A stretch of DNA of 53,903 nt from Candidatus Poribacteria bacterium (GTDB lineage Bacteria; Poribacteria; WGA-4E; PCPOR2b). The stretch covers positions 1-53,903 of the forward strand of contig JAJEAL010000016.1 in the NCBI GenBank assembly GCA_022822785.1, read 5' to 3'. The notes beneath the pieces are model-generated. The model was not told the origin of the DNA. It saw only the letters and a program-made list of their open reading frames with translations, and did no database searches. This document shows positions 51,736-53,903 of this stretch, in pieces. A program made the position numbers and the translations under genes. Each line of letters opens with the position of its first letter. The stretch's first letter is position 1.

Positions 51736-51764
51736 TTGACAAAAACCTTGAAATTCGCTATAAT
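51736..51764 (+). promoter_or_regulatory. Consensus sigma-70 promoter of the Phd-like gene
   Basis: Perfect TTGACA (51736-51741), 17-base spacer, perfect TATAAT (51759-51764), 40 bases before the ATG of the Phd-like gene. This is the best promoter match in the window. Confidence 0.9.
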
Positions 51765-51787
51765 ACCTATATTATCTAATATAGGTA
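51764..51787 (+). promoter_or_regulatory. Operator-like perfect palindrome at the transcription start
   Basis: Two perfect 11-base arms, TACCTATATTA (51764-51774) and TAATATAGGTA (51777-51787), separated by TC. The left arm begins at the last base of the -10 box and spans the expected start of transcription. A bound dimer would block RNA polymerase. The Phd/YefM-type protein encoded just downstream is the obvious candidate repressor, as such proteins autoregulate through palindromes. Confidence 0.8.
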
Positions 51788-51804
51788 CAAAAATAGGAGA
51801 AAAC

Positions 51805-52053
51805 ATGCCTACAAGAACAATCACTTCAACTGAAGCTCAGAATAACTTTGGTCAGATTATTGATGCTGTCGTTCAGGAGCACACCCGTTTTATTATTAAA
51901 CGCCGTAATGCACCACAGGCAATAATGATGAGTTTGTCAGACTTGCGGCAACTGTTATCAAACGCTACTGAAAGAAAAAAAATCGATAGTGTCATTCAAG
52001 AATTGGCACCGGTTTATAAGCTAGGGGAAGCAGTAAACACGCCAGGTGAATAA
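51805..52053 (+). CDS. Phd/YefM-type antitoxin-like regulator
   Basis: 82-residue Phd/YefM-family protein. The N-terminal DNA-binding half reads TSTEAQNNFGQIIDAVVQEHTRFIIKRRNAPQAIMMSLSDLRQLL. The C-terminal part (LAPVYKLGEAVNTPGE) would normally wrap a toxin of the Doc or YoeB type, but no toxin gene follows; the next gene is a DNA methyltransferase. TAGGAG lies 6 bases before ATG 51805. A longer open frame to 51715 crosses the promoter and palindrome and is not real. It probably represses its own promoter, and hence the methyltransferase gene, via the palindrome at 51764-51787. Confidence 0.88.
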   Translation: MPTRTITSTEAQNNFGQIIDAVVQEHTRFIIKRRNAPQAIMMSLSDLRQLLSNATERKKIDSVIQELAPVYKLGEAVNTPGE

Positions 52054-52105
52054 TCTATTAGATGGTAGGAATGGCTCCAGCGAGCATTCAGAAGGATGTG
52101 TTAAT

Positions 52106-53179
52106 ATGACAGATAAACGGATAATTTCTAGGGTCATGGAGGGGAATCAGAAATACGGGCTATTAACAGGGAACTGTGAAGACATCTTGGCTAGCATCCC
52201 CGAGAATAGTATTGACTGCGTTATTACTTCTCCGCCGTATTGGCAGATGCGGGAGTATAGCATAAGCGAAAAAGACTGTGATTCAGTAATTGGCACGGAA
52301 AAAACACCTGAAGAATATGTGATGAGGCTTACCCGAATTTTTACCCAGGTTCAAAGGGTACTGAAAGTAGGCGGGTCTGTATGGTTGAATCTAGGTGATA
52401 AATACCATAACAAGAATCTGATGGGGATGCCTTGGCGGGTTGCACTTGCCATGCAGGAGGATAAGTGGATTCTGAGAAATGATATAATTTGGCATCAGAT
52501 GAAGGGAACACAAAGTGCACAAGATAGGCTTAGGGGTGTACATGAACACATTTTTCACTTTGTAAAAAATAAGAAATACTATTATGATGCCGATAGTATC
52601 AGAATTAAACCGAGCAAACTCCCAATAATCAAGGGCAAGGAGATTATATCGGCCACAGGAGTAAGCGGAAAAAAATACCGCAGGCAGATTCTTACATCTA
52701 AAGAGCTCAATGAAGACGAACGAACTCAAGCGCTTAAAGCACTAGATGACACTTTGGAAAAAATAAGGATTGGGGAGTTAGTCGATTTTAGAATGACGAT
52801 CAGAGGCACCCAACGCACCTACCATAGCAATAACGCTAAAATCAGCGGGCGTGCCAAAGAATTAGAAACAAAAGGCTTTTTTATTTTGACTAGCAAAGCC
52901 AAAGGCTATTTGCCATCAGATGTATGGAATATTGTGCCAGAAGATGAATGGAGGAAGGATGTACATTATGCAGTGTTTCCTACTGAACTGCTTCAGGTGC
53001 CCATCAAGGCGACTTGTCCTATTGGAGGAATTGTTCTTGACCCGTTCATGGGGACAGGCAGCACTTTAATTGCAGCCAATCAACTGGACAGAATCGGACT
53101 TGGAATCGAAATCAGTGAAGAATATGTGAAAATTGCAGAACGTAGATTAGAGACACCTCAATTATGCTTGAGCATTTGA
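52106..53179 (+). CDS. Site-specific DNA methyltransferase (SPPY type)
   Basis: 357-residue DNA methyltransferase with beta-type order: catalytic SPPY (42-45, in CVITSPPYWQMREY) comes before the SAM-binding DPFMGTGST (Asp312). SPPY favours N4-cytosine as target, but N6-adenine is not excluded. The middle part (about 160-280) is charged and probably carries target recognition. I start at ATG 52106, with GAAGGA 9 bases upstream; an in-frame GTG at 52046 overlaps the Phd-like gene. It converges with the NotI-like gene, the coding ends overlapping by 18 bases. Together they form a restriction-modification pair. Confidence 0.9.
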   Translation: MTDKRIISRVMEGNQKYGLLTGNCEDILASIPENSIDCVITSPPYWQMREYSISEKDCDSVIGTEKTPEEYVMRLTRIFTQVQRVLKVGGSVWLNLGDKYHNKNLMGMPWRVALAMQEDKWILRNDIIWHQMKGTQSAQDRLRGVHEHIFHFVKNKKYYYDADSIRIKPSKLPIIKGKEIISATGVSGKKYRRQILTSKELNEDERTQALKALDDTLEKIRIGELVDFRMTIRGTQRTYHSNNAKISGRAKELETKGFFILTSKAKGYLPSDVWNIVPEDEWRKDVHYAVFPTELLQVPIKATCPIGGIVLDPFMGTGSTLIAANQLDRIGLGIEISEEYVKIAERRLETPQLCLSI

Positions 53180-53903
53180 GAGTCGTGCACTAATCTTATT
53201 TTGGAATTCAGTAATTGTTGGAAATCTATCTTCATGTGCGCCACCTAACATCTTTCTGACGCCTTCTGTATCTGTGCTGACTCTCCGGCTAAATTCTAAT
53301 TGCCAAGCATTGAGACTCTCATCCCATACTGTCTTAAATGTGCAAAAATGGATGGCGTCTTCATCTGTCGCAGCGCGTAAATCGCCGGCGTCCGTAGCGG
53401 ATTGTATGTAATCAAGTCCAACGTCTTGAATCACAAATACAATTTTCTTTTTCCAATATTCAACAACCATCCCTTTTTTATACACCTGTTGCATCATCGT
53501 TTTTAAAAATTCATTTGCCCAATTGATTCCATATTTATAGTTCTGCTGTTTAAATCGACCAGTCTGCTTGAAGTCTACAACTCCTGGCCAGGGCGTTCCA
53601 GTTGTACCCGCTGCTTGAAGTTCAACACATAGAAAGTCCTCTATTATACCTCTTTTCATCTTTGCTGCTACAAAGTCGATGCTGCCTGCTACACCACAAG
53701 ACACCTCAGATGCCCACTTTATCTGATGATCATCCGTTACAATGCCAAAATATAATTTCTCGATTGTGTTATAGACCACTTTTTCTTGTAGCCGATGGGG
53801 ACATACAATAATCGGAGTTATCTTTTCAAGGAAATTACCCTTGTAGCCTACAGTACATACTCCTACTTTGATTTCGGGCTCACTTTTCCTTGGCTTTCTA
53901 CAT
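53162..53903 (-). CDS. NotI-like type II restriction endonuclease (partial at window edge)
   Basis: Open from 53903 to the stop at 53162, at least 246 residues; the N-terminus lies outside the window. A start at GTG 53779 would remove the Cys-rich segment VGVCTVGYKG...PIIVCPHRLQ, which looks conserved, so the gene is longer. ELQAAGTTGTPWPGVVDF, with an acidic catalytic cluster just upstream (IEDFLCVE), strongly resembles the NotI/EagI endonuclease family; those enzymes also have a cysteine-bound iron site. Recognition sequence unknown. It is convergent with the methyltransferase and thus not under the same promoter. I base this on recalled motifs, so a profile search is needed for proof. Confidence 0.75.
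   Translation of the reverse strand, partial: CRKPRKSEPEIKVGVCTVGYKGNFLEKITPIIVCPHRLQEKVVYNTIEKLYFGIVTDDHQIKWASEVSCGVAGSIDFVAAKMKRGIIEDFLCVELQAAGTTGTPWPGVVDFKQTGRFKQQNYKYGINWANEFLKTMMQQVYKKGMVVEYWKKKIVFVIQDVGLDYIQSATDAGDLRAATDEDAIHFCTFKTVWDESLNAWQLEFSRRVSTDTEGVRKMLGGAHEDRFPTITEFQNKISARLSNAQA

Follow-up and report, generated by a model that had tools for sequence, protein, structure and literature searches.

Layout of the locus

The stretch of DNA analysed here, which we call the window, is the whole of contig C35 (53,903 nucleotides) of a 5.6-Mb Poribacteria MAG. Gene content at its right-hand end points to a type II restriction-modification (R-M) system with linked methyltransferase (MTase) and endonuclease genes, the products of which would methylate and cut the same target. 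Transcription of the forward-strand genes is predicted to begin at a sigma-70 promoter, TTGACA-17-TATAAT (51736-51764), which matches the consensus at 12 of 12 positions and is of the same type as the promoters preceding other phd genes; among 10 promoter-like sites in a scan of the 4.9-kb region (8.6 in shuffled sequences), this is the sole perfect one. The last base of its -10 element and the start point are overlapped by a 24-bp palindrome on the same strand, TACCTATATTA-TC-TAATATAGGTA (51764-51787; 11+2+11), with perfect 11-nt arms. A search of the window for a second copy with up to three mismatches found none, and shuffled sequences predict 0. A phd-like regulator gene of 82 codons follows (51805-52053, forward strand), and then a gene for a type II DNA MTase of 357 aa (52106-53179, forward strand; PF01555, 170 bits; PADLOC MTase_II, 5e-72), in which the catalytic motif SPPY lies before DPFMGTG. 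We place the MTase start at ATG 52106, after a likely ribosome-binding site, AGAAGGA (52090-52096, forward strand), that is kept in the relative L003; the alternative GTG at 52046 is not kept there. Upstream of phd is a divergent 353-aa ORF, presumably lactonase-like from a reading of its sequence. A toxin gene next to phd was looked for and rejected, the upstream neighbour being this ORF and the downstream neighbour the MTase gene.

The endonuclease ORF (53162-53903, reverse strand; C-terminal 246 aa) is convergent with the MTase gene, with a tail-to-tail overlap of 18 bp. It matches the NotI profile PF12183 at 25.4 bits against a cut-off of 22 (orthologues reach 38 bits) and PADLOC REase_II at 9e-7, is at most 74% identical to full-length orthologues in alignment, and is 25-34% identical to annotated NotI-family enzymes of plasmids. 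Its sequence matches in the PDB include no NotI chain, and the NotI assignment rests on the Pfam profile together with the annotated plasmid relatives. The ORF is truncated at 53903, where the contig ends. With a full-length orthologue as query, the missing N-terminus (MAEPEFSQHPTEIFGYAFTD...CPF, residues 1-36) was located on another contig, C39, at its very end (L061). Because these first residues lie on C39, the two contig ends join inside the CPF...C motif of the enzyme, and the C39 gene upstream of the endonuclease start corresponds to the one next after the MTase gene in L003, the endonuclease gene is probably intact and split over neighbouring contigs. Every feature that a first-pass annotation had read from the letters, namely the consensus promoter, the 11-base-arm palindrome at its start point, the Phd-like gene, the SPPY MTase and the convergent NotI-like endonuclease, was thus recovered, the last as an ORF cut by the contig end.

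The regulator gene product matches PF02604 at 51.9 bits, against a cut-off of 29.8. Its AlphaFold model, with a pLDDT of about 90 over the N-terminal half, adopts the Phd/YefM fold; the model is confident up to roughly residue 50, and less so for a helix at 54-67. Foldseek matched the model to YefM and Phd structures with a probability of 1.00, several of the matched structures being DNA-bound. The predicted fold is not the all-alpha fold of RptR, and searches of the protein gave neither an HTH match nor a PADLOC Control_protein match that would indicate an HTH_3/Xre-type fold. DNA binding by YefM requires R10 and R31 (PMC4803016); when the proteins are aligned, R31 corresponds to an invariant arginine, R33, and R10 to an invariant glutamine, Q12, which would fit a retained DNA-binding surface with altered specificity. 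Relatives of the protein share a conserved C-terminal tail, ER..I..VIREL.PVY.LGE; a match of this tail to VP35 was set aside as a chance coiled coil. Across pairs within this clade the dN/dS of phd is 0.05-0.13, tail included (0.13 between the window and L003), which is similar to that of the MTase genes and indicates purifying selection as strong as that on the MTase.

A Phd clade found next to methyltransferase genes

A search of 85 Poribacteria genomes with the Phd protein of the window identified a 62% identical protein in a genome that has no NotI-type system; its gene lies 9 nt upstream of a different MTase gene, which has a convergent ORF with an EVKAS motif. A profile built from four Phd sequences (A4) was run on nine genomes with earlier loci, 64 Latescibacterota genomes and 400 Chloroflexota genomes. 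Local rescoring, with the Poribacteria matches included, placed 18 loci at 69-167 bits, as against 23 rescored loci below 41. All 18 high scorers are directly upstream of a DNA MTase gene or its remnant (in L099 the MTase gene has decayed, and in L089 the contig ends within it). By contrast, none of the 23 low-scoring phd genes adjoins an MTase gene, and most precede PIN-like ORFs (DTN or VDAS motif), in a comparison set that is mostly from Chloroflexota and with PIN-like calls made by eye. Linkage to an MTase was not a selection criterion, since 14 clade members were found through Phd similarity alone. A nineteenth member, 1 nt upstream of an MTase gene, was found among 395 Desulfobacterota genomes; 396 genomes from the phylum of L022 (Acidobacteria by label) contained none. 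Phages and viral contigs gave no match, and plasmids a single weak one, to an ordinary Phd adjoining a YoeB toxin; the genomes that carry the clade all appear to be uncultured MAGs.

The 19 loci are spread over Poribacteria, Latescibacterota, Chloroflexota and Desulfobacterota, and none has a toxin gene beside phd: where a type II toxin-antitoxin system would have its cognate toxin, the next gene is an MTase gene in 19 of 19. A toxin adjacent to phd in all loci, together with a pairing with the MTase that did not recur, had been named beforehand as evidence against the first-pass reading; the loci gave neither. In a phylogenetic tree, 18 members fall on one side of a branch with support of 94/98 and are sorted largely by the type of their partner. 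Judged by gene neighbourhood, the Phd clade is dedicated to METHYLTRANSFERASES.

We distinguish three types of partner. Type A is the NotI-like system with its SPPY MTase, type B pairs a DPPY MTase of some 315 aa with a candidate endonuclease of 210 aa that is encoded convergently, and type C has an MTase of about 440 aa with reversed motif order, to which the MTase partnered in Desulfobacterota (467 aa) is distantly related (28%). PADLOC assigns all partner MTases to type II, the best-matching model differing between A, B and C. Because the MTases come from three or more families with little or no relationship to one another, the Phd-MTase pairing must have arisen more than once. For the endonucleases, sequence matches make the assignment look firm in type A and weak in type B (PADLOC REase_II, 4e-5 and 2e-5); type C offers a motif only. 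Three of five type C loci have a convergent ORF of 271 aa that bears a CEAKSKGND motif, and in G133 and G138 the convergent ORF has been lost, while phd and the MTase gene are kept and the Phd tail is intact. The 271-aa ORF (L122:2569-3384, L120 and L121), convergent with the reversed-order MTase gene, is a candidate for a new endonuclease family; it has no match in Pfam, NCBIfam or PADLOC, and plasmids yielded no relatives of this third endonuclease type. A type B core without Phd is present on the Acidiphilium plasmid pACMV5 (L132:742-1628; MTase 60% and endonuclease 62% identical), where a gene for an HTH control protein (PADLOC Control_protein, 7e-20) lies upstream of the endonuclease gene and overlaps its start. 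Thus one lineage would have this core controlled from the endonuclease side by a C protein, and another, by inference, from the MTase side by a Phd protein.

The palindrome of the window can also be written as TACCTA-TAT-TATCTA-ATA-TAGGTA, that is, as hexamers at 51764, 51773 and 51782 with 9-bp spacing, the outer two of which complement each other. Comparison with relatives, in which this form is kept, favours reading it as a set of three hexamers at 9-bp intervals. Promoters of the clade usually have a TTGACA-N16-18-TATAAT close to the consensus, with TAGCTA-like hexamers at 9-bp spacing directly after it, so that the array is placed between the -10 element and the start codon; TAGCTAATATAGCTAATATAGCTAATA, from L097, is an example. 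A hexamer pair at 9-bp spacing, with up to two mismatches, occurs in 12 of 16 non-redundant promoters (shuffle mean 0.24, maximum 2 in 500), and pairs at other spacings in 0-2 of the 16; four of the 16 have no clear pair. In the Desulfobacterota member we read TAGCCA/TGGCTA/TGGCTA by eye, outside the count of 12 in 16. The operator pattern occurs at a single site in the whole genome. We considered an operator at the endonuclease promoter and rejected it, having found no counterpart within 120 nt before 12 endonuclease genes, nor elsewhere in the genome of the window. On this pattern, the palindrome is one case of a putative operator that extends across the clade, and its position suggests repression.

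Orthologues of the NotI-type system

Orthologues of the MTase are found in Poribacteria, Latescibacterota, Chloroflexota, Bacteroidota, Ignavibacteriota and Desulfobacterales, usually with a convergent NotI-type endonuclease. A phd gene is directly upstream of the orthologous MTase gene in the window, L003, L010 and L011. In nine other loci the regulator slot directly upstream of the MTase gene is taken by an unrelated conserved small protein of 59-74 aa with a KR.QVSFT..Q motif (L012:4799-4978, L013:4766-4966, L014:170-394, L015:4781-4984, L017:4832-5017, L018:4814-4999, L020:4783-4971, L127 and L129), the genes for which have promoter motifs of their own. No Pfam family covers this protein, and its structure model is of low confidence (66.8) with no useful fold match; because it has weak sequence matches to ParG/CopG, we consider it a probable ribbon-helix-helix (RHH) protein, the fold not being firm. 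A relative of it precedes another MTase gene on a Methanothrix plasmid (L077:3001-3195). The orthologous MTase-endonuclease pair stands without either regulator in six loci of Poribacteria and one of Anaerolineales, and since these seven have neither, the core evidently works without a regulator. In two Poribacteria loci without Phd, L006 and L008, a similar short ORF of about 50 codons lies 14-169 nt upstream of the MTase gene; it may encode yet another, third regulator, or the similarity may be due to chance. In a tree of the MTases, the RHH loci are on one side of a branch (90/88), with the Phd and no-regulator loci mixed on the other.

L003 occupies the same site as the window locus, with the same neighbours and an MTase that is 88% identical. 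Its endonuclease gene is gone, phd breaks off at codon 56, and the palindrome has lost 11 bp (L003:4779-4946). The MTase gene is kept under purifying selection (dN/dS 0.11), and the sequence points to an R-M system decaying to an orphan MTase. Two other endonuclease genes have an in-frame stop (L010:4377) or a truncation (L007:5978-6556), from decay or assembly error.

Proposed control of the MTase operon and comparison with known systems

We propose that the locus is a type II R-M system in which a toxin-free Phd protein is the autorepressor of the phd-MTase operon and hence plays the part of an R-M control protein, a reading to which we give a probability of about 0.8. Computed evidence from MAGs and public records underlies it throughout. 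Counting against it are the seven orthologous loci with no regulator, the four of 16 promoters in which no clear hexamer pair is seen, and the invariant glutamine in place of YefM R10. DNA binding, repression and timing by Phd are predicted as follows. The strong promoter would express the MTase together with the Phd/YefM-fold repressor. When the system enters a cell whose DNA is unmethylated, no repressor would yet be there, and a burst of MTase could protect the chromosome; Phd made from the same mRNA would then dimerise, bind the 9-bp-spaced TAGCTA-like hexamers over the -10 element and start point, and lower the operon to a low steady level, which would spare incoming DNA from excessive methylation. 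The endonuclease gene, on the opposite strand and outside the operator, may be expressed from a weak promoter of its own or by read-through. In a doubtful extension of this proposal, the Phd clade would be a separate, mobile class of R-M control proteins with antitoxin-like instability, and protease removal of Phd under stress or infection would derepress the MTase operon; if this is true, unstable Phd would couple cell state to methylation and restriction alleviation.

An alternative possibility is that Phd activates the operon, or both activates and represses it, and possibly also acts on the endonuclease gene through an unrecognised site. Classical C proteins do both, according to passages of a recent review (PMC12707154). 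We nonetheless consider this quite improbable, given that the hexamers are downstream of the -10 element, where activators seldom bind, that the promoter already matches the consensus at every position, and that the 12 endonuclease genes lack a preceding site. A shade less probable again is an addiction module in which Phd binds and restrains the endonuclease as its toxin. The C-terminal part of Phd proteins normally neutralises the toxin, a tail is conserved in this clade, and L003 has lost the Phd tail together with the endonuclease. The same tail, however, accompanies NotI-type, EVKAS-type and other endonucleases, among which we detected no similarity, and it persists in G133 and G138 after loss of the endonuclease, which disfavours addiction. 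Moreover, R-M addiction already has the MTase as its antidote, and many orthologous MTase-endonuclease pairs have no Phd. Lastly, solitary antitoxins exist, and the absence of a toxin could mean that phd is an ordinary antitoxin gene that has outlived its toxin and lies beside an MTase gene by chance; the 19 MTase-adjoining members in four phyla, the conserved operator and the low dN/dS make this scarcely credible.

The first-pass annotation had offered two of these ideas, an antitoxin-type repressor in place of a C protein on the MTase, and an endonuclease acting as the toxin of an addiction module. The former is well supported on comparative grounds, by the recurrence of toxin-free loci with a conserved operator in four phyla and by the HTH control protein that accompanies one of the cores elsewhere; the latter is not supported, given a tail that different systems share and that outlasts the endonuclease.

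Autogenous control of R-M systems is textbook biology. The passages available to us of a 2025 review describe control by promoter methylation, MTase-fused repressors, antisense RNA and HTH C proteins, and make no mention of a Phd-fold regulator (PMC12707154); likewise, we found no description of a Phd-type R-M regulator in the open-access literature. If our proposal is confirmed, Phd antitoxins have been recruited as dedicated repressors of MTase operons and swapped among unrelated R-M systems, which turns the resemblance long noted between R-M and toxin-antitoxin systems into a literal one where the regulator is concerned. Annotations of "Phd/YefM antitoxin" next to MTase genes would then mislead, and the Phd tail together with 9-bp-spaced hexamers would be a signature with which to find more R-M systems.

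The window locus shares PF12183 with NotI-family enzymes and has an SPPY MTase of N4/N6 type in convergent orientation, whereas the MTase and endonuclease genes of several plasmid NotI-family loci are co-oriented, and the MTase of some is a cytosine MTase. The probable RHH proteins of orthologous loci occupy the same slot as Phd and differ in having unrelated sequences and their own promoter motifs. Classical C-R operons control the endonuclease, whereas control at the window locus is predicted to act on the MTase operon. The nearest working parallel, by analogy, is C.Kpn2I: in that system the promoter of the MTase gene is strong and is repressed by C.Kpn2I, and the endonuclease gene is read from a weak promoter that does not depend on the C protein (PMC6237814). 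In common with C proteins such as C.Kpn2I, the locus has a small, self-encoded regulator with predicted DNA binding, control on the MTase side and an endonuclease gene without an operator; it differs in the Phd/YefM rather than HTH fold, in co-transcription of regulator and MTase, and in the 9-bp-spaced hexamers over the -10 element and start point.

With P1 Phd-Doc and E. coli YefM-YoeB the locus shares the fold, a putative autoregulatory operator overlapping the promoter and the conserved equivalent of YefM R31; unlike those antitoxins, the clade has no toxin gene and a different conserved tail. The YefM operator has TGTACA cores 12 bp apart (PMC4803016), as compared with TAGCTA-like hexamers every 9 bp in our clade. 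RptR, which represses type I R-M defence islands, acts at three 9-bp direct repeats with TAGCTA that overlap the -10 element (PMC12255303), and TAGCTA hexamers at 9-bp spacing before phd in L010, L011 and L097 match that operator. Both regulators are encoded by the first gene of an R-M operon that they repress (as predicted for Phd), through almost the same operator; RptR, however, is all-helical, has no close structural relatives and belongs to type I systems. The likeness of the two operators is likely to reflect convergence, and cross-talk between the two regulators is possible.
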